Origin: Candidatus Jettenia sp. AMX2
Lineage (GTDB): Bacteria > Planctomycetota > Brocadiia > Brocadiales > Brocadiaceae
Direction of reading: 5' to 3'
DNA: 64,000 bases
Assembly (NCBI GenBank): GCA_030583665.1
Contig: CP129469.1
Coordinates: 2,967,043 to 3,031,042 of the forward strand
Under the pieces are notes generated by a model, which was not told where the DNA came from, did no database searches, and saw only the letters and a program-made list of their open reading frames with translations. Both the position numbers and the translations under genes were made by a program. Shown in pieces: positions 25,061 to 44,338 of this stretch. Within the stretch, counting starts at the first letter, position 1. Every line of letters begins with the position of its first letter.

Positions 25061-28000
25061 CTTTATATCCCACATGGTTCAGATGAAACCTAATTCTCCA
25101 ATACTAAATTCAAGTGTCATCTTATCTTTATATCCCACATGGTTCAGATGAAACGCCTTTTTATATTCTTTTTCTATTTCTTCATTACTGGCTTTATATC
25201 CCACATGGTTCAGATGAAACCCGGGGTGTCGGGTTCGCCTTCTACCGTATAAGTAACTTTATATCCCACATGGTTCAGATGAAACGTTTTCGTTATTAAT
25301 ACTGAAATAGAGCTTGTTTTCCTTTATATCCCACATGGTTCAGATGAAACGCTACATTGCGCCCGATATGTATGCTGAAAGAAAAGCTTTATATCCCACA
25401 TGGTTCAGATGAAACGCAAAAATGAGAATTGACGGCGCAATCAAGGATTACTTTATATCCCACATGGTTCAGATGAAACTTGCCGATTGGCTCGCATTTC
25501 AAGCGATGACAAAAATCTTTATATCCCACATGGTTCAGATGAAACGATTAGCGAATTTGGAATATGCGAAGATATCTCATGCTTTATATCCCACATGGTT
25601 CAGATGAAACATGTCCCCTTTGTCAGCCCCAACATTCCCGCAAAACTTTATATCCCACATGGTTCAGATGAAACTGGAAGAAAGAACCGGGCAAGGGGCT
25701 GATCCCTGCAGCTTTATATCCCACATGGTTCAGATGAAACATTGATATTGCTTCCTGGATCTCAACAGACAGAAATACTTTATATCCCACATGGTTCAGA
25801 TGAAACTGAAACAATTAGACCGGTATACTGAAGCAGAATTAACTTTATATCCCACATGGTTCAGATGAAACCCTTTGCCACCGTTCCCATTTTTCAAAAT
25901 CTTCTTCCTTTATATCCCACATGGTTCAGATGAAACTTGTTAAATCTTTGTATATGTACTGACCGCTTGTCTTTATATCCCACATGGTTCAGATGAAACA
26001 TTAAACGAATATTACGCTCGCAGATTTTCAATGACTTTATATCCCACATGGTTCAGATGAAACAGTATTTCCCAGGAGATATAATCAACCGCCTCCATCC
26101 TTTATATCCCACATGGTTCAGATGAAACTGTACAACACATGTTAAGTGTTTTTATTGCGTAATTCTTTATATCCCACATGGTTCAGATGAAACGCGGGCG
26201 AGGAAATCCCTATCAATACACTCGGCAAACTTTATATCCCACATGGTTCAGATGAAACTGGAATGAAGCGCAGAGCAAGAACTTGCCTTATCTACCTTTA
26301 TATCCCACATGGTTCAGATGAAACCGTCTGGATATAAATACAACGGTATGTTCCCATTACTTTATATCCCACATGGTTCAGATGAAACCTTGCCCTGGCC
26401 GAAACTATCAATCAAAAAGTTTCACCTTTATATCCCACATGGTTCAGATGAAACGTTGCCAGTTCTGCCGATGTCATGGAAGCTATTTTACTTTATATCC
26501 CACATGGTTCAGATGAAACCGGTATATCGCCATACCGACGGGCTTACGGCGGTACCTTTATATCCCACATGGTTCAGATGAAACTGGGAAACGCAATAGC
26601 ATTCGGCAGCCTGTCACAACTTTATATCCCACATGGTTCAGATGAAACGAATCCTGAAGGTTGCAGAGTAAGATCTTTTTATTTCTTTATATCCCACATG
26701 GTTCAGATGAAACGCGGGAAGGAATATTGAAAACCAATACTTACACTACTTTATATCCCACATGGTTCAGATGAAACGGGTAGCCCCAGGAGCTGAAGAT
26801 GGCGGCTACGTACTTTATATCCCACATGGTTCAGATGAAACGCAAACCGGAAAGGCGTGGCCGACCTGGAGTTTCCCCTTTATATCCCACATGGTTCAGA
26901 TGAAACTCGGTAATGCGATCCGCTGCGGGACGGATGTAGAGCTTTATATCCCACATGGTTCAGATGAAACGAATCCTGAAGGTTGCAGAGTAAGATCTTT
27001 TTATTTCTTTATATCCCACATGGTTCAGATGAAACGCGGGAAGGAATATTGAAAACCAATACTTACACTACTTTATATCCCACATGGTTCAGATGAAACG
27101 GGTAGCCCCAGGAGCTGAAGATGGCGGCTACGTACTTTATATCCCACATGGTTCAGATGAAACATTCCGGTTTTTTGTTTATAATTAAGTTTTGATAACT
27201 TTATATCCCACATGGTTCAGATGAAACGCAAACCGGAAAGGCGCGGCCGACCTGGAGTTTCCCCTTTATATCCCACATGGTTCAGATGAAACTCGGTAAT
27301 GCGATCCGCTGCGGGACGGATGTAGAGCTTTATATCCCACATGGTTCAGATGAAACGATGTTATGGGAGATAACAAACAGACTAAATTACTCCTTTATAT
27401 CCCACATGGTTCAGATGAAACTTATTGATTTGTATGTGTTTGTTTATCTATCTTCACCTTTATATCCCACATGGTTCAGATGAAACATCGACTTCCTTGC
27501 CCAGGTTTACATCCGTATCCCCCTTTATATCCCACATGGTTCAGATGAAACTTCAGAGAAAAGTACCTCTGCTCCCTCCACTCAAAACTTTATATCCCAC
27601 ATGGTTCAGATGAAACCGAACAATTTTCTCAATGATGCGGTAGGTACAGAGCTTTATATCCCACATGGTTCAGATGAAACGTGGTAAGTGAGTCATATTC
27701 ATCAAGTAATGATACTCTTTATATCCCACATGGTTCAGATGAAACGCAGAAGGGCTGACAATTGCAACACGTCCTTCAGACTTTATATCCCACATGGTTC
27801 AGATGAAACAAGAGATATGAATAAGCGAACTGGATATTATTTTACCTTTATATCCCACATGGTTCAGATGAAACCTTCTACCCCGTAAATTGTAGCCCGT
27901 ATGGCATTATTACTTTATATCCCACATGGTTCAGATGAAACGATGTTAAAAGATTTTACAGAAGCGAGAATGCTAAACTTTATATCCCACATGGTTCAGA

Positions 28001-31000
28001 TGAAACAATCCCTTTGATGATTTTAAATCCGGCGGCAGCGGCCTTTATATCCCACATGGTTCAGATGAAACAGCTCTTTCCGGATGTGCTTCACTGCCAG
28101 ACCAAACTCTTTATATCCCACATGGTTCAGATGAAACGTTGTTACCGGAATCCAAGTCAAATGGCCTGTTTTCCTTTATATCCCACATGGTTCAGATGAA
28201 ACTTAGTCTAATCCCTTGTGTTGCGGTGTCATCTTCCCTTTATATCCCACATGGTTCAGATGAAACCTAGTCACAGAATTCAGGCGCAGAAAATTATTAC
28301 CTTTATATCCCACATGGTTCAGATGAAACTCGAAAAGATGACCATAGCCGCAGCGATCGGCATTCCTTTATATCCCACATGGTTCAGATGAAACTTTCTT
28401 ATGCTTCACTGCATCGATAATCGCCTTATCTTTATATCCCACATGGTTCAGATGAAACGTGCTTCACGAAGACGGCTCGGAGGTTGGGAAATCACTTTAT
28501 ATCCCACATGGTTCAGATGAAACGATAATTTGTATTATAGTAATACTATTTTTATTTAGCTTTATATCCCACATGGTTCAGATGAAACTGTAGGTAGGGT
28601 TTTTGATATACCTTTTAAAGACGCTTTATATCCCACATGGTTCAGATGAAACCAGGCTGAAAAAATTGGTTTTCCCCTCTTGTCTGTACTTTATATCCCA
28701 CATGGTTCAGATGAAACGGTTCAGGCAGCAGTCGAGTATAAACTCCATGGTGACTTTATATCCCACATGGTTCAGATGAAACTATATAGCTATGTTGGCC
28801 AGGCAGGAGTAACTAACGACTTTATATCCCACATGGTTCAGATGAAACGGTTCAGGCAGCAGTTGAGTACAAACTTCATGGTGACTTTATATCCCACATG
28901 GTTCAGATGAAACATATCTTCGGATGATAGTGTAATTTACTTTCAAAACTTTATATCCCACATGGTTCAGATGAAACACAATCATAATCATATATGTAAT
29001 GCAATAAGTAGGGCTTTATATCCCACATGGTTCAGATGAAACAAATATGATGGTTCATGAGGATTAATTTATATGATTCTTTATATCCCACATGGTTCAG
29101 ATGAAACTTATTATACCTTGGCCCATATATATTCCTACATGAGCTTTATATCCCACATGGTTCAGATGAAACTAATATGCGACAGGGGAATAATGGCAGA
29201 AATTACACTTTATATCCCACATGGTTCAGATGAAACTTATTGTCCCTGCTTTGTATCCCCCTTTTATTTCATCTTTATATCCCACATGGTTCAGATGAAA
29301 CATTTTGACCAAAACAAAATAAAACATGTAATTTTGGCTTTATATCCCACATGGTTCAGATGAAACCTGCTGGCTCGGGCGATGGTCAGTTCAATAGCCC
29401 CGACTTTATATCCCACATGGTTCAGATGAAACTCCTCCAATAAGTCTAATTGATTTTTTACCCATCCTTCTTTATATCCCACATGGTTCAGATGAAACTA
29501 TCATTTGTGCTACTAATTTTTCAATTTGTTTTTTCTTTATATCCCACATGGTTCAGATGAAACGGTGATCAATTTTTTGAGTACTATAAAATCCCAAAAG
29601 CTTTATATCCCACATGGTTCAGATGAAACCTTACCCCACACGCCGGCCCTTTTAAAAACATCAAACTTTATATCCCACATGGTTCAGATGAAACTATATG
29701 ATTTGGAAAAGATTGTTGGTTGTTCCGGGGCTTTATATCCCACATGGTTCAGATGAAACCCACCTCGGTCAAACAACCCAATATCTTATAAATAACTTTA
29801 TATCCCACATGGTTCAGATGAAACCTAAATGAGAATAACAGCATTATACAAGTCCTGGAGCTTTATATCCCACATGGTTCAGATGAAACATCTTCTTGCA
29901 TCCTTCCTGAAATTGTTTTTTAAACTTTATATCCCACATGGTTCAGATGAAACAATGATATGGGGTGTGAGCCGAGAGGATGTGGAATACTTTATATCCC
30001 ACATGGTTCAGATGAAACCTCCTCAAGAGCAGATTCTAAATCCGGTCTCTTTACCTTTATATCCCACATGGTTCAGATGAAACTTACCTCCATCCCCACA
30101 TCACTTCCCATATCAAGTATCTTTATATCCCACATGGTTCAGATGAAACCCCTTCAATAGTATCTGCCTTGCTGAAAATTCTTATCTTTATATCCCACAT
30201 GGTTCAGATGAAACATAGATATAATCCCCTTCATCGTCACTCAGGACTTCACTTTATATCCCACATGGTTCAGATGAAACCAAATACTATTTCTACGATA
30301 GCTGCTCAAATAGCTACTTTATATCCCACATGGTTCAGATGAAACTTTTTTCATCTCCGCAATGAGTAAGTGATGCGCAACTTTATATCCCACATGGTTC
30401 AGATGAAACGGACAGGGTGAAACACAACCCGGTCTTTTAGGAATGACTTTATATCCCACATGGTTCAGATGAAACCAGACAAAACACCAGATTGATATTT
30501 ATCAATCTCCCTTTATATCCCACATGGTTCAGATGAAACCTTACTCAAATACCATCATCGTCCGGGAATACAATCTTTATATCCCACATGGTTCAGATGA
30601 AACGAAGAGATTGATAGCTGGTTTGGGACACCATGGAAACACTTTATATCCCACATGGTTCAGATGAAACATGATTATCCCTCCAAGAATATTTCTTAGT
30701 GATGTGACTTTATATCCCACATGGTTCAGATGAAACCTTTTGCTTACAGAAGAAAAGATTTTGACGAATTAACTTTATATCCCACATGGTTCAGATGAAA
30801 CTCTTCAAATGAACAGCTTCCACCAACTGTCAATAATCTTTATATCCCACATGGTTCAGATGAAACTATGATATCAAATATTTCGTGGATAGAGACCTTT
30901 TGCTTTATATCCCACATGGTTCAGATGAAACTAAGCCTATTTCTCCAAAAATACCATTTACACTTTCTTTATATCCCACATGGTTCAGATGAAACCGAGC

Positions 31001-31709
31001 ATCTAAATTTCATTTTAATACTCATAAATATCTTTATATCCCACATGGTTCAGATGAAACGAAGAAAATGTTGGAAAAGGCTGTTGATTTGTATAACTTT
31101 ATATCCCACATGGTTCAGATGAAACAGGGTCTTCCATGACAATGACAGCAAGCATAGTCATCTTTATATCCCACATGGTTCAGATGAAACACAACTCAAT
31201 CAATGCCTCTTTATCAATTTCATCGGACTTTATATCCCACATGGTTCAGATGAAACGGAAATATTTGCTACCACAACCGGGGATATGGTAGACTTTATAT
31301 CCCACATGGTTCAGATGAAACGTAGATAAAAATGTGAGAGACAAACTTGAAAAATTATCTTTATATCCCACATGGTTCAGATGAAACAACACAACTTATG
31401 TATACTCCGTATCCCTTGCTTTCTTTATATCCCACATGGTTCAGATGAAACCCCAAAGACTTCCAATAACATATTGCTCATATGAATCTTTATATCCCAC
31501 ATGGTTCAGATGAAACAAATAAAGGAACTATTTACCCTTTCAAAATATAAAGCTTTATATCCCACATGGTTCAGATGAAACAGAGCATATAAAACAGACG
31601 ATACAGAATATATAGTCTTTATATCCCACATGGTTCAGATGAAACGATGTTATGGCGATATAGCTCGGTAGAATTTATTGCTTTATATCCCACATGGTTC
31701 AGATGAAAC
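25061..31709 (-). CRISPR. Type I-B CRISPR array, about 103 repeats
   Basis: By hand count there are 103 copies of a 29-base repeat and 102 spacers of about 34-37 bases. I noticed no variation among repeats. On the minus strand the repeat begins GTTTCATCTGAACC and ends ATATAAAG. This resembles the 29-base I-B repeat I recall from Clostridioides difficile (same GTTT start, TAAA end) at about two-thirds of positions. I therefore read transcription leftward from a leader at 31710-31915, beside cas2. New spacers should enter at the right end. Spacers include a duplicated block (26649-27327) and wobble variants (28718, 28849). Confidence 0.95.
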
Positions 31710-31915: not shown

Positions 31916-32182
31916 CTACAAAATATTTCCTGTCATTTCCTTTTCAATGCCAAGAACAACCTTACGGTAATTCAGCCTGTTTTCCAGGCTGTAAAAATAG
32001 ATGGAATCCTTATCGGTCTCGATAACATCGCGCAGTTCCACCTTACACTGCTCAAGCTTTCCCAGGGTTATATCCCCCTCAAAAACCGAATTTTGTACCC
32101 ACATGAAGTACTTCTTTAGTATTTTCCTTATTTTGTTGACCCTCTCTTCCCCAATATCGTAGGTAACAATTAAATACGGCAT
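31916..32182 (-). CDS. cas2: CRISPR adaptation nuclease-fold protein Cas2
   Basis: 88 residues with a ferredoxin-like fold: strand LIVTYDIG with the conserved Asp9, helix ERVNKIRKILKKYF, then WVQNSVFEG and the SIYFYSL strand. Cas2 dimers bridge two Cas1 dimers in the complex that inserts new spacers. It is the last gene of the cas group before the leader, 89 bases after cas1. Confidence 0.93.
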   Translation of the reverse strand: MPYLIVTYDIGEERVNKIRKILKKYFMWVQNSVFEGDITLGKLEQCKVELRDVIETDKDSIYFYSLENRLNYRKVVLGIEKEMTGNIL

Positions 32183-32271
32183 TCTTCTATCTCCAGCAAG
32201 ATTCAGATGATACGTTCCTGTTTCTCTTAATAGAGGGAATCTACCATTTATCTTTTCCCTTCAATCTGTAT

Positions 32272-33252
32272 TCACCACCATGCCTTAAACGGAACGTAAA
32301 TCTCATCGCCAAGAAAATGTTTTATCAGCTTATAACACTCAAGCCTGATAAGCGTCCTGTACGAGACGTTCCTCTTTAATTTTCTGTGCTTGATAGTAGT
32401 TGTCAGTTTCTGATCAAACTCTTTGAGAAATTTCTTCCGGCCACCCTCATTCAAATAACAGTAATTGACATCTTCCTCAAAATCTTCAAGCTTTACCATA
32501 TTGTTATTCACCAGTTTGAAAATAATGGGATCAACAATAAGCGGCTTAAAAATCTCTGCTATATCAAGGCTCAAAGAGTATCGCCTTTCCCGTGGTTCAT
32601 GCAGATAACTTATTGTGGGGTTAAGCTGCGTGTGGTATATCTCAGAAAGCACGGTTGAATAGATCATGGAATTGCCGAACGATATCAGTGCATTAATGGG
32701 GTTGGTAGGCGGCCTTTTCTCGCGTTTTTCCATTATAAAATCCTCTTTCAGAATAGCATTGAACGCCTGATAATAAACATCTCTCGCCCGTCCTTCGCAT
32801 CCCATAAGTTCACTGATAGTTCTTGACTTGCTTGCATTGGCCTGTTCAGTCTCAATCTGTTTCCGGAAATCTACCGTATTTGAATATTCCCGTAAATTCC
32901 TTGCAATATGGAACATGGCGCCCTCAACAAAGGAAATGGCGACGAAGAAACGGTGTTCTGGATTAAGGTAATGTTCCACCTGCCTGACGGTCAATTCACC
33001 CGACACATTCCTGTCCCTTGGCATAAAACTACCGGCATAGAAACCGTAGTAGTTATAGATATGGACGGTCTTATTCTGCTGTGACAGGAAATTGAGCAGC
33101 TTTGTATTGAGGTCAACCTCTCCAAAGAGGTGGATCGTGTTAACATCCTCCACCGGAATAGCCTTTTTCTCACCCTTATCATTTTCGATATAAAGGGTAT
33201 TTTCCTGTCTTTTAATACGGCCGTTAGAAAATATGTAGTATGATCTGGTCAT
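32272..33252 (-). CDS. cas1: CRISPR integrase Cas1
   Basis: 326 residues. An N-terminal beta domain (about 1-75, with VHIYNYYGFYAGSF) is followed by the helical catalytic domain. The metal-binding residues are E153 (GCEGRAR), H218 (SYLHEPRERR) and D230 (LSLDIAEIFKP), all present. It catalyses spacer integration at the leader-repeat junction. The length is normal for subtype I-B. It lies between cas4 and cas2. Confidence 0.95.
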   Translation of the reverse strand: MTRSYYIFSNGRIKRQENTLYIENDKGEKKAIPVEDVNTIHLFGEVDLNTKLLNFLSQQNKTVHIYNYYGFYAGSFMPRDRNVSGELTVRQVEHYLNPEHRFFVAISFVEGAMFHIARNLREYSNTVDFRKQIETEQANASKSRTISELMGCEGRARDVYYQAFNAILKEDFIMEKREKRPPTNPINALISFGNSMIYSTVLSEIYHTQLNPTISYLHEPRERRYSLSLDIAEIFKPLIVDPIIFKLVNNNMVKLEDFEEDVNYCYLNEGGRKKFLKEFDQKLTTTIKHRKLKRNVSYRTLIRLECYKLIKHFLGDEIYVPFKAWW

Positions 33253-33413: not shown

Positions 33414-33932
33414 TTATCCCCAGCAAAATTCGTAATAGGCACATTTTGTACAATAAGGTTTTCGCTGCAGCGCCGGCGGTTTCTCCATTTCCAAAATCTC
33501 TTTCACACGTATCAGTGCCGTTTCTACCTCTTTTTCAGCTTCTGGGGTTAACACGACCTCCTCCCGTTTTCTCATTTTTGGATAATTAAGAACACCCCTC
33601 TTTTCAATACCCAGTTGCCTGAGATAATACAGGTAATAAAGTAACTGGATTCTGTCCGCATGTGCAAGTCTGTTGCTGTACTTAACTTCCCGGATCTCTT
33701 CATCGCCTGCAATATCGATATTAATAAGATTATCGATGAGCAATTCCCTCTTTTCCTCGCGCGGATACGAACTTTCACCAAGCAGCTTTCCCATCAGCAC
33801 CTTATCCGACCTGGATTCCATAGCAATCCCGAGGTCAAAAAGCCAGAGTTTCCGTTCGCAGACATAGAGATAATTGACCTTAATACCTGTGGTCTTCAGT
33901 GTTTGAAAGTCTGCATCTGTATTGGTACTCAT
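33414..33932 (-). CDS. cas4: CRISPR adaptation exonuclease Cas4
   Basis: 172 residues from the ATG with GAGGA upstream; the earlier in-frame ATG lacks a site. RecB-like nuclease motifs are D68, EVKYSNR (E82, K84) and the QLLYYLYYL helix. Four Cys (C25, C161, C164 and C170 in YCTKCAYYEFC) hold an iron-sulfur cluster. Cas4 trims prespacers and selects the PAM. It is separated from cas3 by the nucleotidyltransferase-HEPN cluster, which is unusual. Confidence 0.92.
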   Translation of the reverse strand: MSTNTDADFQTLKTTGIKVNYLYVCERKLWLFDLGIAMESRSDKVLMGKLLGESSYPREEKRELLIDNLINIDIAGDEEIREVKYSNRLAHADRIQLLYYLYYLRQLGIEKRGVLNYPKMRKREEVVLTPEAEKEVETALIRVKEILEMEKPPALQRKPYCTKCAYYEFCWG

Positions 33933-34061
33933 TGAATATCCTCTGCCGTTTTTCCTGTATAGGCACATTTAAAATAATACACTAACCGGTAGAGGGGACT
34001 TTTACTCTACCATCTGAAAAGAGGGGACAAGAATGTATCTCAAGATAACAAATGTTTAGCC

Positions 34062-34415
34062 TCATTTATCATATAAATCAGATAGCATTCTCTGAACTGT
34101 ATTCTCTAAAAGTAATAAATCATCTTCTTTTGTTTGCCAGATAATAGAAAGATCTAGTCCAAAATATTCGTGAATAAGTTTGTTCCTCATGCCAATTATT
34201 TCTTCCCACGGTATCTCTGAATATATCTCACGAATGTGTTTAGGAATCTTGTTTGCTGCTTCTCCGATAATCTCCAGGCATCTCACTACAGCCTTTACTG
34301 TCTTTCTGTCATTTATAAAATTCTCATAGGTCATCCCTTTAGTAAACGCTCTAATATCCATCAACGATTCAATTATGTCATTGAGATAATCCTGAATAAG
34401 CCTTTCTTCAGACAT
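34062..34415 (-). CDS. HepT-like HEPN toxin (pair 3)
   Basis: 117 residues from the ATG at 34415, which overlaps the end of the upstream nucleotidyltransferase gene by eight bases. An all-helical DUF86/HepT protein with the RNase motif RX4HXY intact: R77-NKLI-H82-E-Y84. In the studied HepT-MntA system the Tyr of this motif is AMPylated by MntA, which silences the RNase. All features needed for that are present here with the partner upstream. Confidence 0.82.
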   Translation of the reverse strand: MSEERLIQDYLNDIIESLMDIRAFTKGMTYENFINDRKTVKAVVRCLEIIGEAANKIPKHIREIYSEIPWEEIIGMRNKLIHEYFGLDLSIIWQTKEDDLLLLENTVQRMLSDLYDK

Positions 34416-35172
34416 ATTGAACCTCTTGAAGGATTCTTTTTCCAATATAAGGCTTCAAGGCTTTTTTTGTCACAAGGTCAACTTTTATTCCAAGTAATTC
34501 AGAAATACTATTTTCAAGCTGCATAAATTTTATAAATCCTATAGGCCTTTCAAATTCAACCAGAATATCTACATCGCTACTTTCATCTTGATCATCTCTG
34601 ACATACGAACCAAATATACCTATTTCCTTAATTCCATATTGTTTTTTCAGTTCGTCTTTGTGCTGGCTGATTATCTCTTTAATTTCCTCGAGTGTCTTCA
34701 TTATTACCTGAATATCCTCTCTGTCAAAGGTTCTGTAAAAGAAAATATTGGAAGGCTTCTCTGAATATCTCACAGCTTTCAGAAGTTCAGTGAAAACAAA
34801 TGTCTCAAAAATCGCAACCCTTCCTGCAAGGGTATCCGCTATGTCTTTATATGCCAGTATATTTGTTGAACCTGTCAAAAGGTAGCTCCCGTTCACCCTT
34901 TTCCGGTCTACGTTAAATTTGATCGCACTCAAAAGCTCCGGTACTTTCTGGATTTCATCAATGACAACCGGCTTTTTGAGACTGTTGATAAACAGATGGG
35001 GATCTGTCCGTGCAGAGGCATACACCACAATATCATCAAGGGTTATATAATTATCAAGCCTTGTTAAAGCGAGGGTGGATTTACCGACCTGCCTCGCCCC
35101 GGTCAGAAGGACTACGGGAAAATGCTTCATAGCATCAGAAAGTTGAGAGGAAATAGTTCGCGGGTAAAGCAT
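34408..35172 (-). CDS. Truncated DUF4143 ATPase fused to MntA nucleotidyltransferase (pair 3)
   Basis: 254 residues. Residues 1-150 are the AAA part of a DUF4143-type ATPase: Walker A GARQVGKST, Walker B VVIDEIQ and the sensor LLTGSTNI. The C-terminal DUF4143 domain is missing. Residues 158-254 form a complete MntA-type nucleotidyltransferase with GSX10DXD (GSYVRDDQDESSDVD). An internal ATG (34701) could start the nucleotidyltransferase alone. It is either a read-through remnant from a deletion or a genuine fusion. Translationally coupled to the HepT gene downstream. Confidence 0.8.
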   Translation of the reverse strand: MLYPRTISSQLSDAMKHFPVVLLTGARQVGKSTLALTRLDNYITLDDIVVYASARTDPHLFINSLKKPVVIDEIQKVPELLSAIKFNVDRKRVNGSYLLTGSTNILAYKDIADTLAGRVAIFETFVFTELLKAVRYSEKPSNIFFYRTFDREDIQVIMKTLEEIKEIISQHKDELKKQYGIKEIGIFGSYVRDDQDESSDVDILVEFERPIGFIKFMQLENSISELLGIKVDLVTKKALKPYIGKRILQEVQYV

Positions 35173-35246
35173 TTATACTCCTTGAATTTTTGGTATTATA
35201 ATACCATAATTTATAATACCATGTTCGAGAATGTAAAGGGTGTTTA

Positions 35247-35669
35247 TCACTTTTGGTTTTCAATAATCTCAAGAAGGGTTGTATAGAATTCTTTTATGTC
35301 GGACATCTCATTTGCGAGAATATCATAAAGCATCCCTGTATCTATATGATTATACAAATGAACAATCCTGTTTCTGAACTTAGACATATTTGTATAAACC
35401 TCTACCTTTTCTTTAGGTATATATCCCGCATCGGAAAGTATCTTGATTATCTCAGCATTTGTATTAGGCATTTTTAATCCAAGATTGGCAATTATGTAAC
35501 TTCCGATGTCAAGGAGCGCCTGTATAGATGTCTGCAAAAGGTAAAGAGAAGACGCAACATTCCTGAAGTCAGAGATAAAATCTTCATAATTCTTTTCCCT
35601 TAATATGCTTAATTTATTAAGGTTTTCTACAATAATATCTATCTTTGACTGAATATCTTCCTGTCTCAT
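35247..35669 (-). CDS. HepT-like HEPN toxin (pair 2)
   Basis: 140 residues, all helical, DUF86/HepT family. The motif R99-NRIV-H104-L-Y106 matches RX4HXY exactly. It starts four bases inside the end of the MntA gene upstream (ATGA-type overlap), giving coupled translation. The predicted activity is tRNA or mRNA cleavage unless AMPylated. It follows the same layout as the other pair but is clearly diverged in sequence, so it is not a recent duplicate. Confidence 0.83.
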   Translation of the reverse strand: MRQEDIQSKIDIIVENLNKLSILREKNYEDFISDFRNVASSLYLLQTSIQALLDIGSYIIANLGLKMPNTNAEIIKILSDAGYIPKEKVEVYTNMSKFRNRIVHLYNHIDTGMLYDILANEMSDIKEFYTTLLEIIENQK

Positions 35670-36088
35670 ATTTTTGCCAGTCTATTTTTTATCCCTTGAA
35701 AGTGAAATCTTTTAATAAATCTGATGGTCGGCTCAAAATCGCAGAAATATGAAATAGCTTTTGCAGTAAATTTTGTTCTGAATGCCGGGTCTGCATCATA
35801 TATCAATTTCCCTGTCCTTAAAACATTATATTGAAAAATAAGCCCCTGATTATTGAGTTCTATCAAATCTACTTCTCCTGCTTGTAAGGCGTCTTCAATC
35901 CTGTATGCCAGATAATCCATTTTGTGCATTAATTCCCTTCCCTCCGGGTGCGGCTCTTTGAGCAAAACGGCAATATCCACATCGCTCATCGGCCCTTTTT
36001 TGCCTGTCGCATACGAACCAAAAAGATATGCCGCAGCTATATATGGGTAATCTTTGAATATTGTTTTAAGTCTCTCTAAATCAAGCAT
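35666..36088 (-). CDS. MntA-type nucleotidyltransferase antitoxin (pair 2)
   Basis: 140 residues. GSX10DXD is intact (GSYATGKKGPMSDVD), followed by the third carboxylate region VDLIELN. A minimal nucleotidyltransferase of the MntA family, expected to AMPylate its HepT. The C-terminal 35 residues (IRFIKRFHFQGIKNRLAKI) are longer than the minimal domain. It starts ten bases after the HEPN gene of pair 1. Confidence 0.82.
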   Translation of the reverse strand: MLDLERLKTIFKDYPYIAAAYLFGSYATGKKGPMSDVDIAVLLKEPHPEGRELMHKMDYLAYRIEDALQAGEVDLIELNNQGLIFQYNVLRTGKLIYDADPAFRTKFTAKAISYFCDFEPTIRFIKRFHFQGIKNRLAKI

Positions 36089-36097
36089 TACAAACCT

Positions 36098-36394
36098 CTA
36101 TTCATGCCAATTTTTAAACATTTTATGTAGGCTTGCCGAGTAATGTTTGTCAATTTTCCCTGTTTTAATAAATTCCTTATCGAACAAGGAAATAACACCT
36201 GTATGCTTTGATGTCCTAATGTCAACACCCGTTTTCAGGAAAAGAGCCAACACAGAATAGAACATTGCGTAGTACGCCCTATTGGTAATAGATCGCGGAC
36301 TGAAATTCCCTTCCTGATGCATTCTTACTGCATCCGCAAGAGTTTCCTCAGCCTGTTTAATGCGGTAGAAAAACAGCGATTCTATATCAGTCAT
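36098..36394 (-). CDS. HEPN-domain protein, C-terminally shortened (pair 1)
   Basis: 98 residues of the PF05168 HEPN type: long first helix (YRIKQAEETLADAVRMH), then SITNRAYYAMFYSVLALFL and TSKHTGVISLF. The family usually continues about 25-30 residues beyond LHKMFK, but here a stop follows KNWHE. It overlaps the upstream nucleotidyltransferase by four bases. It may be inactive as an RNase, or this shorter form may act as a cofactor. Confidence 0.72.
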   Translation of the reverse strand: MTDIESLFFYRIKQAEETLADAVRMHQEGNFSPRSITNRAYYAMFYSVLALFLKTGVDIRTSKHTGVISLFDKEFIKTGKIDKHYSASLHKMFKNWHE

Positions 36395-36708
36395 ACCCTG
36401 ATGCCTTCTCTTTCAATATTTTTTACGATAGGAGATACTCTCAGAGGTGATACCTCTATCTCATAACGGGTAAATATAAGCGGTGAAATATATACGGAAT
36501 TTTCAAAACCGACCTCCCAGACAATATCATCTTTTTTATTTTCACATTCCTTATCCATATTTTCTACCTCTATAAATACATCCATATCTGAATACTCGTC
36601 AGCCTCACCCCGCGCCCTGGATCCAAAGACACGGAAATCAACAAGCTGGACAATTTCAGATAACCTTTTCTTTAGCTCCCTTGCAACCTTCAAATCATTC
36701 TCTTTCAT
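36391..36708 (-). CDS. Minimal nucleotidyltransferase (pair 1)
   Basis: 105 residues from the ATG with a GAGG site. GSX10DXD is intact (GSRARGEADEYSDMD), then VFIEVE and a short C-terminal domain. A stand-alone MNT protein, the partner of the HEPN gene downstream. It is the first gene after cas3, 228 bases on, in the same direction. The intervening 36709-36936 has no gene and may hold a separate promoter. Confidence 0.8.
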   Translation of the reverse strand: MKENDLKVARELKKRLSEIVQLVDFRVFGSRARGEADEYSDMDVFIEVENMDKECENKKDDIVWEVGFENSVYISPLIFTRYEIEVSPLRVSPIVKNIEREGIRV

Positions 36709-36936
36709 AAAATACCTCATGAAATCTTTAGCTATTAAATCTTCTCTTTTGCATGTAGAATCGTAATTCCGACAAGTTCCTTATCGTGGTAATGATAAAC
36801 AAAATCATTTTTCTAATAATATACCGGATAACCTCTCAAAACCTTTGTTTGAATTCTCTGTCCAGAGAAACTGAGTTCCTCGACTATTACACTCAAAAGC
36901 AGGAATTTAGGAACAGCCAAAAGCATACTGTTGTCT

Positions 36937-39126
36937 TCATATAATAAATACACCTTCACCCTGCTTATCCGTAAACTCTATTCCCTTCTCAAAAGAATAA
37001 CCAACATCGTGTAATATATAGATGTTATTCTTCGTGCAGTATTCTGAATCAGGTATAGGAGCTAAATATTTTTTAAATTTATCATATAATTGTACAGGAA
37101 CTGTAAATGCTTTTAGCTTGCTCTTGGCAAGGATTCTCTTTTGAATTTCTACATCTTTATTATCAATAATTTTTATCGACTCAGTAATTTCTTTTTCATT
37201 TTCTTCAAAAACAGGGCGGGGTATGACACAATAAGTAAACGAGATGTTCCTGAAGAGTTGTTCTGCCTCCGATTTAGATGCTGCCCTTAAGCCCAATTCA
37301 AGCAGGTCTTTATTCCTTTTATATTTTGCATAATAGTTTGTAGTTTCTATATCTTTGAATATCTCATTTATTGCACTTTGCTTATCATGTTCTGTCATTA
37401 TTTTCCCGTTGAAATTCCGGATCATCATTTTATAGGTTCTATTATTGAGTTCTGTGTCGTAGCCTTTAAAAGGTTCTGTCTTAAATATATGAATATTGGG
37501 AATTTCTCCATGATACTCTCTTTTTCTATAGCACCGGCCAAATCTCTGAAGCAGGCTGTCTATTGGCGAGCATTCAGTAAATAAGACATCGAAATCCAGA
37601 TCCAGGCTTGCCTCCACAACCTGCGTAGCTATCCAAATTATAGGTGGATGTTCGGGTTTATTTACAGCCATTATGCCTGCTGTTCTACTTTCCTTTAGTT
37701 GTCTGTCTTTCTGTATAAACCTTGAATGTATCAGTAAAGGACTAAAGTTTTGTAAAAGTTCATGCATCTCTTGTGCCCTTTTAACAGTATTGCATACAAT
37801 TAACACTTTTTTGCCTAATTTGAAACGTTGAACAATCATTTCCAATACCACATTATTATTAATAAATTCTTCATAGGTTGCAATTCTGTGTCGTTTAGTT
37901 GATGGTAATTCCGGGGCAGGAAATTCCATATTCTCAAGTTCGTTTAATTCATTTTTAATGAAAGGTGGTAATGTGGCTGTCATTAAAAGAAATTTACCAC
38001 CTAGCCTGTGAACCTCTTTAAGAAATACCATAATAGCAGCTATGGAATCTGGTGAAAAACTCTGAATTTCGTCAATCACAATTTTGGAATACGATGCCGT
38101 TAGGTATGGCAATTCAAAGCCATTATATTTAAAGACTGCAGTTACAAGCTGATCAGCAGTTGCAACAGTTATGGGAGCACAGAGTTTTCTTGCGGTTTCA
38201 ATCCGTTCAAAATAGTTTTCATCGGTATCGCCTTGCTCAAAGATATAACTTATTTCACCGTGTAAAAGTGCAACATTATTGCCAAAAATATCTATGAATC
38301 TTCTGTGCATTTCATTAACAGCAGTCCTTAATCCAAGCAGATAAAATGCCTTTTGCCCATTTATCCAATTCATTGAGTATTCTGTTTTTCCCATGCCTGT
38401 AGCTGCTATTAAAACAACATTTTTATTTAATAGTCTTTTCGCTCCATGTTGAAAAGGTCTCATCTCCCAACCCTGTTGAGATAGCCACTTGTTAAAGTCA
38501 GTCTCGTAGTCGCCTTGATAAGTCCTTTCAATCTCGATGCCTGCTGATGCTGTATAATCACACTTATGAAGTATTCCCTTTAAAAAAACTATTAGCTCAA
38601 AATAGTTTTTAAAGTTTGTTTGTGAATCAATTTTCTGCTTTATATCTTTTTTGATGTCATAGTCATAATTTAATGGATACTCAATTTCCAAACTTCCTTT
38701 ATTTTTCTCAAGATCAAAAAAGATAGTTTTTTCAACGGTTTCTTTATCAAAGTGTTTTTCTCTTACATGGTGAAAAGCAATGCAGTATTGGACAAGATCG
38801 GCAAAACGGATATTTTCATTACTAAAACTATTAAAGAACTTTTTGTCAACTTTGGAAATAAAAGCCAAGGACAGCCATTCATGAGGAATTTCAGGGTAGT
38901 CTTTAAGCTCTGGAATAAACCTCTTTTTCTCAATACCAAGTTTATTCTGAAATTTGTGATTCAGTTTGCCGAGGTCATGATAGTAAAGAATTTTCTTAAT
39001 GACTTCGTCGTATTTTCCTACTTTTTCTGAAGGAAGAACTTTCTTTAGTTTTTCATAACCTTCAATAAGTTTACGATTATGTTCTTCAATTGTTTCAACA
39101 GGTTTCGATTTGGCATAAATAGGCAT
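36937..39126 (-). CDS. cas3: Cas3 nuclease-helicase
   Basis: 729 residues. The N-terminal HD nuclease domain (about 1-200) has H16, H50-D51 (YYHDLGKLNHKF), H82, H119-H120 and D190. The superfamily 2 helicase has AATGMGKTE (241-249), VIDEIQSF, MTATLPP, and the C-terminal QVVEASLDLDFD and QRFGRCYRK. It unwinds and degrades DNA recruited by Cascade. The order HD then helicase is standard. It starts eight bases after cas5. Confidence 0.95.
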   Translation of the reverse strand: MPIYAKSKPVETIEEHNRKLIEGYEKLKKVLPSEKVGKYDEVIKKILYYHDLGKLNHKFQNKLGIEKKRFIPELKDYPEIPHEWLSLAFISKVDKKFFNSFSNENIRFADLVQYCIAFHHVREKHFDKETVEKTIFFDLEKNKGSLEIEYPLNYDYDIKKDIKQKIDSQTNFKNYFELIVFLKGILHKCDYTASAGIEIERTYQGDYETDFNKWLSQQGWEMRPFQHGAKRLLNKNVVLIAATGMGKTEYSMNWINGQKAFYLLGLRTAVNEMHRRFIDIFGNNVALLHGEISYIFEQGDTDENYFERIETARKLCAPITVATADQLVTAVFKYNGFELPYLTASYSKIVIDEIQSFSPDSIAAIMVFLKEVHRLGGKFLLMTATLPPFIKNELNELENMEFPAPELPSTKRHRIATYEEFINNNVVLEMIVQRFKLGKKVLIVCNTVKRAQEMHELLQNFSPLLIHSRFIQKDRQLKESRTAGIMAVNKPEHPPIIWIATQVVEASLDLDFDVLFTECSPIDSLLQRFGRCYRKREYHGEIPNIHIFKTEPFKGYDTELNNRTYKMMIRNFNGKIMTEHDKQSAINEIFKDIETTNYYAKYKRNKDLLELGLRAASKSEAEQLFRNISFTYCVIPRPVFEENEKEITESIKIIDNKDVEIQKRILAKSKLKAFTVPVQLYDKFKKYLAPIPDSEYCTKNNIYILHDVGYSFEKGIEFTDKQGEGVFII

Positions 39127-39134
39127 AGTTCTTA

Positions 39135-39848
39135 TTATATAGATAAAAAACTTATCGGATTGCCGTCACTGTCAGTGGTAAGATGGGGATAATCCTGAAT
39201 TTTATTACCTCTTGCAACATAAACGGCATCAACATACCTAAATATTCTTTTGTCATTAAAAGAATTCACAGGCTCATAATAGAAAGGAAGCCTGTAAAAA
39301 GTCCCTTCTATATGCTCATGCTTACAAATTTCAGGTTTGAGATATATGCTGTATTCAAGCCTGCACTCATTGCCTAATGATATAACATCAACAAGTTTTG
39401 TTTCCTCTGAATCCACACGGGCAATATCTTCGTTTCGGCCAAGTACGACGGTCTTTTGACTTACTGCCTCAAACAGTTTATCGTTTAAAGAATCATTATC
39501 AAAGGAAACATGCAGAAGGAGTTCCATATCAACAATTTCATCTACAAACATAACGCCATGAGTTGCAGTCTTTTGAGAGGTTCCGATTATTACATTATAG
39601 GGATTATTTGGCCTTGATGCTCTATCCCTGTCAAATTTGTAGACCTTTTGCATATTTGTGACTACTGATGCATAATTGCCCTGAACAGAAATTTTCATAT
39701 TGTGGTAACTATCTAAATCAAGAATAGCATGTGCCATGCCTTTTATCATAGACGGTGTTGGAAGCGGATATGTCTGTACATAGCCATAGCTCAATTCCAT
39801 TCTATAATTAACCATATTTTGATAAAGCTTTATCCTGACTGCTTTCAT
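39135..39848 (-). CDS. cas5: Cascade subunit Cas5
   Basis: 237 residues. The RAMP-type N-terminus (MKAVRIKLYQNMVNYRMELS), then TYPLPTPSMIKGMAHAIL with the conserved Pro-Ser-Lys-Gly, is characteristic of Cas5 of subtype I-B. It should bind the 5' handle of the crRNA. It overlaps cas7 by four bases at its start. Confidence 0.9.
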   Translation of the reverse strand: MKAVRIKLYQNMVNYRMELSYGYVQTYPLPTPSMIKGMAHAILDLDSYHNMKISVQGNYASVVTNMQKVYKFDRDRASRPNNPYNVIIGTSQKTATHGVMFVDEIVDMELLLHVSFDNDSLNDKLFEAVSQKTVVLGRNEDIARVDSEETKLVDVISLGNECRLEYSIYLKPEICKHEHIEGTFYRLPFYYEPVNSFNDKRIFRYVDAVYVARGNKIQDYPHLTTDSDGNPISFLSI

Positions 39849-40744
39849 TTTTTGACCTTGTAGAATTCGTCAACTTTATTTTTAATATTTCCAAAAAAAT
39901 CTTCTATTGTAAGCTTATTGGAAACATCAATACTCTCAACATTGGAAAACTCACTGTCAAGATAGCCCAAAATAGTTTGGTCTTTAACAGTATTCTCTAA
40001 AGTTTTTATGGTAAGAGTACTATTAATAAGTTTTTCATTAAGTAAAATTTTGTCTTTTGTGAATGAGAGTTTTACTCTGTTATAGAAGAAGGGGTTGCCA
40101 ACATCATATAATCCACCTATTATAAAAAGTGGTGAAAGATTTTCTCTTTTGCCTCTAATATCCCTGTGAAGAAGCTTTATGACATTAAGCAATTTTTTAA
40201 CTCTATCAGATCTTTCTAGTTCAGCTAAGGTTATTTGGTAAACAGTATCTACGCCGATTTCTTCGAGGTTGCAAGTTATGGTATAACAGTAATAAGAACG
40301 ATGGATTTCAGCCTGGAAAATATCATTGCCAATGTTGTTGGGTATCCTATCAGCGAGTCCCTTATTTGTTCCAAATTCCAATTCATTATAGAACGGCTCA
40401 AGACTAACTGCATCAGTAAGCCTGACTACAGCCTTTCTGATTTTATTGCTATCCTTAGTCTTCATATAGCCAAAAAAGTCTATTTCGGGGAAATCTTCAA
40501 TAGTAGCATCTTCAGCAAATTGAATGACACCGGCGTCTTTATTTACGTTGGTAAGTTTACATTTATACAACTCGTCAAGCATCCTCACAATGTCATATCG
40601 TAGTGCCTGTCTGCTTATGTATGAATAGTTTTTGCCCTCTGTTGTTACTTTTTTTAAAGTAAGAATATTTCCAACGCCCTCGCCATAGTTTAAATTTGAA
40701 GCCTTAAAAATAACTGCAAGGTGGAGATATTTATTATCTACCAT
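39845..40744 (-). CDS. cas7: Cascade backbone Cas7 (Cst2/DevR family)
   Basis: 299 residues. The N-terminal strand HLAVIFKASNLNYGEGVGN and SRQALRYDIVRML are typical of the Cst2/DevR group of Cas7. Repeated copies line the crRNA spacer in the I-B effector. It overlaps cas8 by seven bases and cas5 by four, so expression of these genes is tightly coupled. Confidence 0.9.
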   Translation of the reverse strand: MVDNKYLHLAVIFKASNLNYGEGVGNILTLKKVTTEGKNYSYISRQALRYDIVRMLDELYKCKLTNVNKDAGVIQFAEDATIEDFPEIDFFGYMKTKDSNKIRKAVVRLTDAVSLEPFYNELEFGTNKGLADRIPNNIGNDIFQAEIHRSYYCYTITCNLEEIGVDTVYQITLAELERSDRVKKLLNVIKLLHRDIRGKRENLSPLFIIGGLYDVGNPFFYNRVKLSFTKDKILLNEKLINSTLTIKTLENTVKDQTILGYLDSEFSNVESIDVSNKLTIEDFFGNIKNKVDEFYKVKK

Positions 40745-42378
40745 AATTGTTTATTCTCCTTTGTTTTGTTTGTATTTTCATTTTCTGCTGCCTTGGCTTT
40801 ACTCATCAAGCCATTGACAAATGAGTATCCAAACTGTAGAAAATAGTCATAATCAAGCATTTCATCCATACCAAAGAGATTTGGCTGATTGTTAGACATC
40901 ATTATCCTGATATACTTATCAAGGAATTTTTCCCGGTCTGCAATCTTCAGGTCGTTCAAAAAGCCATACACTAAACCATTGATTTGATTTTCTTTATCTT
41001 TTCTCAGTAATTCATTCCGCAGATCAATACCACTTTTGAACCCCTTTTTTACAATCGTTTGCCCTCTTCCTTTATCCATACCTCCCCCTCTTATCCATTG
41101 AATGTATTTAATGAGAAAATCTGCAACCTTGTACAGATTATATTTAACAGAATATCTTTCTGGACTTAAATAATAGATAAAATATATATAAAGCGTTGAA
41201 TAATCGATCTGTCGTTGAATTGCAAGCTTTAAGAGTTCCTCATCAATGCTGCAATAAGTTTTCTTTATCGTATAAGAACCTCTGGGGACACTGTCTGCTT
41301 GAAACTGCAAATCAAGAAATTCTGCAATATCAGGGCTTATATTGTAATTGTAAATATTATATCCTTTGGAGCTTTGTCCAGCCAATATAGGATTGTCAGC
41401 AATCTCAATAAAGTTTATGTTTTGTGTTATCTTCTGAGTCTGTTTAGACCTTATATGTCTGACTGTTTCCTTAACCATTGCATAGAGCAATTCATTACTA
41501 TTTTCAATATTCTCAAGCATGAGATTGAATACTCTTACTGTTTCAAAGAGTCCTTTCACATTTGTGTTTTCATTTGCAAAATAGAAATAATTCAAATAAT
41601 CTCCTTCGATCTTCTTTAAAATATAAGCGAAGGATGCGAAAGAGCAGTTATATATCAATGCACAAAGAGGACATAACTTAAGTTTTGAGGATTTATAGCC
41701 CCATATCCAGTTAGAGTTATCCTTATTAAAACCGATGATGTTAGAAACGGCATTGTTAAATTCATATTCTGCCTTTCTTTCCTGACAGGAAGGACATCGG
41801 TCATTATTTTTTAATTTCTTGGAGTAATCAAGAATTTTGATTCTGTTTATATACTCTGAAATACTGTCATAAGAACAAACGCCTTTAAACTTCCACGCAA
41901 TAAAATTATTCAGCGACTCATTCCCCTCTTGGTTGCATTTTAATGCTTCAAAAATTTGCGCTTTTGTAAAAGTTTTGACAGTATTCACGGCATTCTCAAG
42001 AATAGCTATAAGATCGTCAGTATTCTTATACTCATAAATTGGGATATTTAATAATTCCAAAAAATTTTTATAAGGCGATTTTTCAATATCAGCGATCTTT
42101 TTAGCAAGCTGTTCAGTTTTTATCTTGGATTTTTTATCGTTCAGTTCCTTGATGGATTTTTGTAATCGCTGAAGATACGCCTGAATGCTGAAAAATTTCA
42201 AAAACGCATGTTTTACGAACTTTTCCTCAAAACCTTCAAAAATGGTATTGTCAAATTCAATAAAGTTTTCACCGATAACCAATGATGGAATATTATCAAG
42301 TTCGTCTGATATAGTAGTCAAGAAACCTATAATCCCCGCATTAAAATACCAATTACGCAGGTATATTTTATGCATCAT
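40738..42378 (-). CDS. cas8: Large Cascade subunit Cas8 (Cst1, CXXC-CXXC)
   Basis: 546 residues. The N-terminus YLRNWYFNAGIIGFLTTI is the Cst1 signature, and two CxxC pairs (C195-C198 in CPSCQ, C236-C239 in CPLC) form the zinc site that names the family. It recognises the PAM in I-B Cascade. The start overlaps the end region of a tiny ORF that repeats the same N-terminal motif. The strong site GGAGGTGG precedes the ATG. Confidence 0.9.
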   Translation of the reverse strand: MMHKIYLRNWYFNAGIIGFLTTISDELDNIPSLVIGENFIEFDNTIFEGFEEKFVKHAFLKFFSIQAYLQRLQKSIKELNDKKSKIKTEQLAKKIADIEKSPYKNFLELLNIPIYEYKNTDDLIAILENAVNTVKTFTKAQIFEALKCNQEGNESLNNFIAWKFKGVCSYDSISEYINRIKILDYSKKLKNNDRCPSCQERKAEYEFNNAVSNIIGFNKDNSNWIWGYKSSKLKLCPLCALIYNCSFASFAYILKKIEGDYLNYFYFANENTNVKGLFETVRVFNLMLENIENSNELLYAMVKETVRHIRSKQTQKITQNINFIEIADNPILAGQSSKGYNIYNYNISPDIAEFLDLQFQADSVPRGSYTIKKTYCSIDEELLKLAIQRQIDYSTLYIYFIYYLSPERYSVKYNLYKVADFLIKYIQWIRGGGMDKGRGQTIVKKGFKSGIDLRNELLRKDKENQINGLVYGFLNDLKIADREKFLDKYIRIMMSNNQPNLFGMDEMLDYDYFLQFGYSFVNGLMSKAKAAENENTNKTKENKQLW

Positions 42379-42601: not shown

Positions 42602-42847
42602 TCAACGGTTTTTTTCGTTTATCTTTTTCTCGTTGAGCATGAAGACCTTTTCCAACTTAAGCGTGATATCGTTTCCAAAACCAAATTCCTTCATGTTCAA
42701 TAAGCCGTTATAGAGGTTCACGATAAATTGATAATCGGGAGAGCTTACAAAAGCACGCACTATATGTGTGCTTACCTGTACTGCTACAGGACCGTTTAAT
42801 ACATTGGTAAGCATAATTGCACCATGTTCTGTAAATGCATACGGCAA
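42602..42847 (-). pseudogene. Chimera of ORF6N fragment and duplicated cas6 segment
   Basis: The first 32 codons (PYAFTEHGAIMLTNVLNGPV, then IVRAFV) are the end of an ORF6N DNA-binding domain. The frame then crosses into a 137-base copy of cas6 (42616-42752 matches 43921-44057 with about three mismatches). The junction is at SSPDYQF. It is a recombination scar between an ORF6N gene and cas6. Confidence 0.7.
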
Positions 42848-42861
42848 ATTAGGTGGAAACT

Positions 42862-43305
42862 TTACTTTTTTAACCTTTTAACATCTAATAAGTCCTGTTC
42901 TCTGCCTGCTGCCATTTTGTTTTTTATAAGCTGCTCTTTTCCAATAAAATATACTGGAATATCAGAACTGCCGAATACACCCGCAACTTTATTTTCCCAG
43001 ATTTCCTTCCAGGCTACCCCTGTAACAGAGGTTAATATATCGATTCTGTTCGGCTCATACCCAAGCTGAAATACCCACCCTTCCTTATAAAGATCATCCG
43101 CCTTTAATCCCAGAGAACCAAATCCAAACTCATCCAGCGCAGAAATAACCTTTTCTACATTTTCTGTTGTGGTTTCAATAAGAATATCCAAATCTCCCGT
43201 GCCACGGGGTCTTGAATGTATTGCTACGGCATGCGCACCTACTATCACGTAATTAACTTTGTGATAGTTTAACAATCGTAAGAATTCTCTGAAGTCCTTG
43301 CTCAT
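42862..43305 (-). CDS. Nucleotidyltransferase inside the cas operon
   Basis: 147 residues: VIVGAHAVAIHSRPRGTGDL DILI carries the GxxA and DxD motifs of the larger AbiEii/DUF6036-like nucleotidyltransferase family, distinct from the three minimal MNT proteins downstream. It overlaps the small upstream gene by about 50 bases. It may be the antitoxin or toxin half of a two-gene module placed between cas6 and cas8. Confidence 0.7.
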   Translation of the reverse strand: MSKDFREFLRLLNYHKVNYVIVGAHAVAIHSRPRGTGDLDILIETTTENVEKVISALDEFGFGSLGLKADDLYKEGWVFQLGYEPNRIDILTSVTGVAWKEIWENKVAGVFGSSDIPVYFIGKEQLIKNKMAAGREQDLLDVKRLKK

Positions 43306-43459
43306 TAAGGTTAATTCCCCTCATTTCACTATATTGTTTTCTTAATTCTTCAACAGCATCGATTTTTTCTTTTATAGACCTGGATTTCCAAAACCTCAAA
43401 TCGTCTTCTTCCTGTTTTTCAGAATCGGTTAACCTGTATTTTTTTATCACTTTTTCCAT
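43253..43459 (-). CDS. Small partner of the nucleotidyltransferase
   Basis: 68 residues from the ATG at 43459 (MEKVIKKYRL). It is charged and helical, with FWKSRSIKEKIDAVEELRKQ. Small proteins with this pattern commonly precede nucleotidyltransferases of this type. The long overlap (53 bases) with the next gene argues for coupled expression. The activity is unknown. Confidence 0.6.
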   Translation of the reverse strand: MEKVIKKYRLTDSEKQEEDDLRFWKSRSIKEKIDAVEELRKQYSEMRGINLNEQGLQRILTIVKLSQS

Positions 43460-43492
43460 ACAAATTCCTTCTATGAATAATTGCAACTCATG

Positions 43493-44338
43493 TTATCTTA
43501 CCGCATCCACCATCCCGAATCCCTGTCCAGTTCTGAGTCCAATACCCACCTGATACAGGGTCTGGAGGTCTCTCGGGTCTCCTTTCAATATAAAGCAGCC
43601 CTGAAAGGTGGTAAGGGTCATATATGGCTTCCCGGTTTTTTCCCTGAACCCCCGCAAGGTATGTTTTACTACCTGCTTTTTAAGATTCATGGGTATAAAC
43701 TCGATTTCTCTGTATAATCCGTGTCCTTTTTTACCGTTTTCTGCCCTTATATCCTCTAAAATTCTGTTGTGTGTCTCGTTGAAGTGGTTATTAAAATACT
43801 GAAGGTTCAAGGGAGAAGGCTGAGGGATCGACGCCGAAGAATCATGGAATGGCAGTAATGGTTTGCCGTCTTTGTCTTCTATTAATACCGGGGAATTGGT
43901 TCTGAATGTGACTTCATTCCCGTTTATCTTTTTCTCGCTGAGCATGAAGACCTTTTCCAACTTAAGCATGATATCGTTTCCAAAACCAAATTCTTTCATG
44001 TTCAATAAGCCGTTATAGAGGTTCACGATAAATTGATAATCGGGAGAGCTTACAAAAAAAGAGATGAAACTTTCTGAAGTGAAATAAAAGACCGTGTCTT
44101 CGATCTTAAATGTGTCGTCTATTATTATTTTTTCTTTTTTGGAGGTTTTGCCGGAGGGAATGACTACGCTGAATGCAAAGGGTTTTACTTGCTTGGATTT
44201 ATCGGAGCCTTTGTCGGGATAGAGGAGTTGTCTATAACCCGCATCCGACCTGTCCAATGCCTCTTTTATCAGGGCCATAAAACGATGCCGGTAGAGGATG
44301 GGTAATTTACAGGCCTTAAAGGTTACTTTAATCCTAAT
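43493..44338 (-). CDS. cas6: CRISPR RNA endonuclease Cas6, ATT start
   Basis: 281 residues if read from ATT at 44336-44338. GGAGGA lies six bases upstream, and the N-terminal residues RIKVTFKACKLPILYRHRF fit the family start perfectly. The first in-frame ATG (44278) would cut off this strand. The C-terminal Gly-rich loop GIGLRTGQGFGMV is diagnostic. Cas6 cuts the repeat transcript to give crRNAs. An in-frame TAG lies two codons upstream of the ATT, so no longer version exists. It is the first gene of the cas group. Confidence 0.88.
   Translation of the reverse strand: MRIKVTFKACKLPILYRHRFMALIKEALDRSDAGYRQLLYPDKGSDKSKQVKPFAFSVVIPSGKTSKKEKIIIDDTFKIEDTVFYFTSESFISFFVSSPDYQFIVNLYNGLLNMKEFGFGNDIMLKLEKVFMLSEKKINGNEVTFRTNSPVLIEDKDGKPLLPFHDSSASIPQPSPLNLQYFNNHFNETHNRILEDIRAENGKKGHGLYREIEFIPMNLKKQVVKHTLRGFREKTGKPYMTLTTFQGCFILKGDPRDLQTLYQVGIGLRTGQGFGMVDAVR

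Follow-up and report, generated by a model that had tools for sequence, protein, structure and literature searches.

A type I-B CRISPR-Cas locus of Candidatus Jettenia sp. AMX2 carries, between cas3 and cas4, six genes that form three pairs, each of a minimal nucleotidyltransferase (MNT) and a HEPN-domain protein. We think that this gap is probably a boundary hotspot for mobile toxin-antitoxin modules resembling type VII, and that the lineage of the pair nearest cas3 (pair 1) prefers cas loci without being exclusive to them. The stretch analyzed, hereafter the window, comprises 64,000 nucleotides (nt) of contig CP129469.1 (assembly GCA_030583665.1, forward-strand positions 2,967,043 to 3,031,042) and is part of a single-contig 3.46-Mb chromosome. 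The arrangement is real and unusual; among open-licence papers we found no report of MNT-HEPN genes between cas3 and cas4. An initial annotation of this stretch had offered two readings, a device that guards the CRISPR locus or triggers dormancy and a toxin-antitoxin hotspot. The hotspot is the better supported, by the unrelatedness of the pairs, the truncation of one toxin, the debris of an ATPase, and toxin-like genes at the same junction in sister loci, while the CRISPR-linked reading gains some support from the preference of the pair 1 lineage for cas loci (7 of 18 copies).

All six genes lie on the minus strand, in the direction of the cas genes, and Pfam matches and coordinates agree with the pairing first proposed. 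The three MNTs match NTP_transf_2/Polbeta (Pfam E values 2e-12 to 3e-21) and keep GSX10DXD, as had been claimed (GSRARGEADEYSDMD, GSYATGKKGPMSDVD, and GSYVRDDQDESSDVD). In pair 1, MNT1 (36391-36720; PF01909, 2.4e-12), a member of the cas-preferring clade, is followed with a 4-nt overlap by HEPN1 (36098-36394; PF05168, 9e-8), a C-terminally truncated toxin. Pair 2 consists of MNT2 (35666-36088), an MntA-family adenylyltransferase antitoxin with structural relatives PDB 5yep and 7ae2_B, which scores 90.7 bits against NF047752 where the NCBIfam equivalog cutoff is 60 bits, and of HEPN2 (35247-35669; PF01934, 1e-24; PDB 7ae9 HEPN toxin, 1e-6), a predicted HepT-like RNase toxin that again overlaps its partner by 4 nt. 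In pair 3, MNT3 (34408-34704) is the C-terminal part of an open reading frame (ORF) at 34408-35172 (PF01909, 4e-18, on ORF residues 168-254), and HEPN3, a putative HepT-like toxin (PF01934, 1.9e-29), is listed at 34062-34445; a start at the ATG near 34415 gives an overlap of 8 nt, so that the annotated range of 4-8 bases stands. The RX4HXY motif is intact in HEPN2 (RNRIVHLY) and HEPN3 (RNKLIHEY) and absent from HEPN1, again as annotated. Because the domain matches are strong and only eight HepT-like matches occur in the whole 3.46 Mb, two of them at this locus, chance can be excluded for the observation itself.

Two parts of the cluster are decayed. HEPN1 belongs to PF05168 rather than to the HepT family (PF01934), and its 98 amino acids compare with 130-135 in intact relatives; in the alignment, the C-terminal R...DY segment is gone. 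Its homology stops near residue 93, ∼30 nt before MNT2 (the stop codon is 9 nt before MNT2), and pair 2 therefore joins inside HEPN1. Insertion of pairs 2 and 3 into HEPN1 as a single block was considered and rejected, as the lost C-terminus left no remnant downstream. The intact relatives of HEPN1 share the R...DY segment with known HEPN-T (PF05168/UPF0332) modules that accompany an MNT (AF0298, PDB 2hsb; 9xbd/9xbc), from which HEPN1 of the window differs in lacking the segment and in belonging to a clade enriched in cas loci. The segment reads DY in 9xbd and DF in 9xbc, and the deposited sequences suggest that the tyrosine was mutated by someone as a functional site. The pair 1 toxin is probably inactive in this genome. 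HEPN1 is also shortened in two other genomes (102 amino acids in G005:C2 and 88 in G039:C74), as expected if the toxin is disarmed repeatedly. The second decayed part is the N-terminal part of the ORF that contains MNT3 (34724-35172, minus strand; PF13173, 3.5e-22; PDC-S01, 3.7e-51), in which an AAA_14 domain (residues 19-127) and a short remainder of DUF4143 (residues 120-158; profile positions 108-145 of 160) precede MNT3 in frame. It is an ATPase with an internal deletion, and translation of MNT3 likely starts at an internal ATG. Just upstream of this remnant, at 35173-35246, lie a palindrome (GGTATTATAATACC) and a second partial copy of it, possibly a promoter or operator of its own.

No pair is related to another, and their chromosomal relatives differ, which rules out amplification of one pair and agrees with the initial annotation. 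In the compared set, the closest relative of pair 3 lies at 3.42 Mb in genome G024, away from cas1 genes (72% identity for MNT3 and 70% for HEPN3), and the best relative of pair 2 is only 35% identical; the relatives of both are scattered, with no close cas-linked ones. Pairs 2 and 3 resemble the type VII system HepT-MntA of Shewanella oneidensis (SO_3166/SO_3165; PDB 5yep and 6m6u) in that an MNT with GSX10DXD precedes an overlapping HEPN of PF01934/PF08780 with RX4HXY, and MNT2 exceeds the MntA equivalog cutoff. They differ from it in their low identity, in their position within a cas operon, and in that HEPN3, the other protein scanned, falls below the HepT equivalog cutoff (41.7 bits against 60). 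Pair 1 lacks the type VII hallmark in its toxin, HEPN1 being a truncated PF05168 protein without RX4HXY. The best solved relative of HEPN2 is a HEPN/MNT system of cyanobacterial origin (PDB 7ae2, 7ae6, and 7ae9; Songailiene et al. 2020). Its RNR.VH.Y motif aligns with that of HEPN2, but the relationship is distant (∼30 bits).

The same junction holds additional genes in sister genomes of the family as well. The gap between effector and adaptation genes holds an MntA-HepT pair and a second MntA in G008, an MNT3-like-HepT pair beside pair 1 in G005:C2, and an MNT-HepT_2 pair with an AbiEii-like gene beside pair 1 in the type I-D locus G006:C62. Fic/Doc genes are found there in G010 and G020, a lone MNT in G003, and a HEAT/SEC-C gene in G005:C4, G017, G012, and G008, while the locus with the closest cas3 relative (L031) has a UPF0149/SEC-C gene. 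Insertion of such a module into a host operon has a precedent in the unrelated lysine operon of Thermus thermophilus HB8 (PMC2701414), although that case is a single insertion and involves no defence locus.

Pair 1 is an old resident that has been inherited together with the adaptation module. G022, a genome of another genus of the same family, has an intact pair 1 between cas3 and cas4, ending 18 nt before cas4. At the amino acid level, cas2, cas1, and cas4 of G022 are 89-91% identical to those of the window, MNT1 83%, HEPN1 68%, and cas6 72%. For cas3, by contrast, identity falls to 34%; the match of cas7 is weak, and none was reported to cas8b or cas5 of the window. Because the effector genes differ while pair 1 and the adaptation genes match, pair 1 travels with the adaptation genes. 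A 106-nt leader upstream of MNT1 (36731-36836, minus strand) is 88-90% identical in G022 over about 103 nt; a promoter, or the 3' terminus of a gene since lost, may reside in it. It is conserved at least as well as the flanking genes and occurs among the loci compared only in G000 and G022. One of its frames gives KNDFVYHYHDKELVGITILHAKEKI, which might be the tail of such a gene. The dissimilar cas3 of G022 (L073, 10294-10319) contains a 24-of-26-nt match to one spacer of the window (25155-25190), with an E value of 4e-4 per spacer that is marginal over 102 spacers.

The lineage of pair 1 recurs in cas loci. Whole genomes were searched with a profile built from five HEPN1 sequences; in 98 relatives we accepted matches of at least 180 bits, below which there was a gap down to 130 bits, and found eight copies, three of them outside cas loci. 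The five cas-linked copies are those of the window, G022, and G011 (all type I-B), of G005:C2 (a Csh2-type I-B locus with a different Cas1), and of G006:C62 (type I-D, with Csc1, Csc2, and Cas3'). In G011 (L080, 5014-5816), a second, broken copy of MNT1 lies between HEPN1 and cas4, followed by apparent debris of an AbrB-type antitoxin. The phylum to which L033, a record of Spirochaetota, belongs yielded three copies in 345 genomes; one separates cas1 from cas2 in a type I-B locus, and the other two are elsewhere. In the phylum of L031, 396 genomes contained seven copies, of which six are elsewhere and one immediately follows cas6e of a type I-E effector operon, ahead of the array. At the I-E locus (L176), the pair 1 relatives occupy 2601-3301, between cas6e and the array, and cas1 and cas2 were not recognized in the 13 kb read. 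Altogether, the 839 genomes of these three phyla contain 18 copies, of which 7 belong to cas loci of types I-B, I-D, and I-E and 11 lie elsewhere, so the clade is not an obligate cas accessory; two further phyla (35 and 195 genomes, 230 together) yielded no copy. Of the seven cas-linked copies, six adjoin the effector module on its downstream side, and every one is oriented in the cas direction. Because the Cas1 proteins of G000, G022, G011, G005:C2, and G429 are 23-55% identical (except for G000 and G022, at 91%), descent with a single cas lineage does not by itself account for the association. We set aside a single cas-only clade, as copies inside and outside cas loci are mixed in the tree, but the support of this tree is low and the approximately unbiased test does not reject monophyly of the cas-linked copies (p 0.31). 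No relative that would point to a phage origin of pair 1 appeared in one IMG/VR scan limited to two short patterns, a weak negative.

We estimated the background from ∼47 cas1 loci in 13 genomes, the surroundings of which, within 5 kb, cover 1% of the sequence. With the window copy (the seed) left out, and likewise the Spirochaetota, which had been chosen for scanning on account of a cas-linked copy already known from them, 5 of the other 14 copies are cas-linked (P ∼2e-7 at 1% per copy), or 4 of 13 without G022, which represents the same locus (P 7e-6). Among HepT genes, 5 of 50 lie within 5 kb of cas1 where 0.5 would be expected (P 1.6e-4), and two of these five are the window's own. The initial annotation had held that pairs scattered without preference for cas loci would refute a CRISPR link: the scattered relatives of pairs 2 and 3 speak against the link, and the pair 1 clade, with its preference for cas loci, speaks for it. 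We regard it as quite unlikely that abundant toxin-antitoxin genes simply happened to fall in a defence island, without any preference for cas genes, and for pair 1 this is already disfavoured, given the enrichment of its clade and the unrelated cas contexts in which it is found (divergent Cas1 proteins and a I-E locus without a recognized cas1 in the stretch read). Coincidence does draw on the fact that MNT-HEPN modules are among the commonest of their kind and insert into operons, and the authors who reported this see no strong link of toxin-antitoxin genes to CRISPR loci (PMC2701414). It also fits the scatter of the relatives of pairs 2 and 3 and the third phylum, where only one of seven pair 1 copies is cas-linked.

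Several points weigh against a boundary hotspot with a cas-preferring pair 1 lineage. The P values are approximate, and the clade was partly defined from cas-linked copies; when the count is restricted to copies that did not enter the profile, cas linkage is seen in 2 of 13 (P 0.007). Toxin-antitoxin and cas genes come together in defence islands in any case, and part of the enrichment can be explained in this way. The effector genes overlap or abut, and insertions would survive only at module edges, so position alone may mean nothing for CRISPR. Finally, every pair is oriented like the cas genes, including all seven cas-linked copies of pair 1, which is not required of a pure passenger.

The orientation and recurrence of pair 1 bear on a different and rather unlikely explanation, namely that the pairs guard the locus by making its loss or failure costly, with toxins kept silent by Cascade or by the integrity of the locus, as a protein counterpart of the RNA-based CreTA. 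In a narrower and equally doubtful form, the pair 1 lineage would be a protein-based addiction or guard module specialized for CRISPR loci, one that moves between types I-B, I-D, and I-E, occupies the boundary at which effector modules are swapped, and penalizes the loss of neighbouring cas genes. Its recurrence at the effector edge of all three types, always in the cas direction, and its retention when the effector module was swapped are consistent with this, and CreTA, a toxin-antitoxin system in a gap of I-B and I-F cas operons, shows that toxins can reside in such operons (PMC10097628). However, CreTA is a system of RNAs that Cascade represses by means of a CRISPR-like RNA, whereas the modules described here consist of two proteins and no CreA-like element was found: the best degenerate CRISPR-like repeat within the pairs matches 18 of 29 positions, with shuffle maxima of 17-20, and the highest repeat-like match in the operon (21 of 29, at 32185) falls outside them, immediately ahead of cas2. 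Spacers of the array directed against the pairs were also sought, and only chance-level matches of 13-18 nt were found in the window. Moreover, the pair 1 toxin is truncated both in the window and in G005:C2, and 11 of the 18 copies of its clade lie outside cas loci. HepT is neutralized by AMPylation of the RX4HXY tyrosine, a covalent modification whose reversal is unknown (PMC7641770), and loss of the antitoxin gene by itself therefore does not free the toxin.

It is very unlikely, in our judgment, that the pairs are an abortive-infection back-up in which infection triggers the HepT RNases when interference fails and the cell goes dormant. The coupling of immunity to dormancy is an established hypothesis (PMC3506569), HEPN RNases work in many defence systems (PMC3710099), and PADLOC counts such MNTs as candidate defence genes (PDC-S09), but we found no sensor domain, CARF fusion, or link to phage signals in these pairs, and similar pairs are common far from cas genes.

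The gap between cas3 and cas4 is the boundary of an effector module (cas6-8b-7-5-3) and an adaptation module (cas4-1-2). Under the boundary-hotspot reading, this site is permissive for insertions, mobile toxin-antitoxin modules of two genes have entered it time and again, and the cluster goes back to three separate arrivals. Pair 1, which is inherited with the adaptation module, would have been the first to arrive, its lineage settling preferentially at the edge of cas effector modules. We infer that pair 2 (MntA-HepT) came next and, landing within HEPN1, cost it the C-terminus, and that the ATPase came too, with MNT3 and HepT3, before decaying. HEPN2 and HEPN3 are predicted to be RNases that would arrest growth, held inactive by MNT2 and MNT3 through AMPylation of the RX4HXY tyrosine. 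The pairs would then be mainly passengers leaning on cas transcription and may secondarily stabilize the locus.

The remainder of the locus, on the minus strand, has the order cas6, cas8b1/Cst1, cas7/Cst2, cas5, cas3, the six pair genes, cas4, cas1b, cas2, and the array, and so has the full complement of a type I-B locus (cas8b-cas7-cas5-cas3-cas4-cas1-cas2 with cas6 and an array). Upstream of the pairs, cas3 (36937-39126; TIGR01587, 3e-73; PADLOC Cas3b, 5e-185) is the last effector gene, preceded by cas5 (39135-39848), cas7 (39845-40744), cas8b1 (40738-42378), and cas6 (43493-44278). Downstream, cas4 (33414-33968; TIGR00372, 6.8e-20) is the first adaptation gene, followed by cas1 (Cas1b, 32272-33252; TIGR03641, 3.8e-141) and cas2 (31916-32182; TIGR01573, 5e-12). 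The array (25061-31709, plus strand) has 103 identical 29-nt repeats; a segmental duplication at 26620-27358 presents four spacers twice, and one perfect repeat lies at 22740-22768, 2.3 kb outside. The operon is otherwise not standard, contrary to the initial annotation. Its cas6-cas8b gap holds a DUF6036 nucleotidyltransferase (42862-43305) with a small partner gene (43253-43486) and an ORF6N-like remnant (42602-42847), all on the minus strand, and a 137-bp segment (42616-42752) is 98% identical to part of cas6 (43921-44057), which indicates that the insertion here was accompanied by duplication of cas6 sequence. The cas6/effector edge is a second insertion site.

These findings address the question of what toxin-antitoxin genes do in CRISPR loci, whether as passengers, as stabilizers, or as part of the immune response. 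An MNT-HEPN lineage that recurrently borders the effector modules of I-B, I-D, and I-E loci, and that is intact or broken depending on the genome, offers natural comparisons. Because effector and adaptation modules are exchanged at the same boundary, such modules may mark or favour the exchange.

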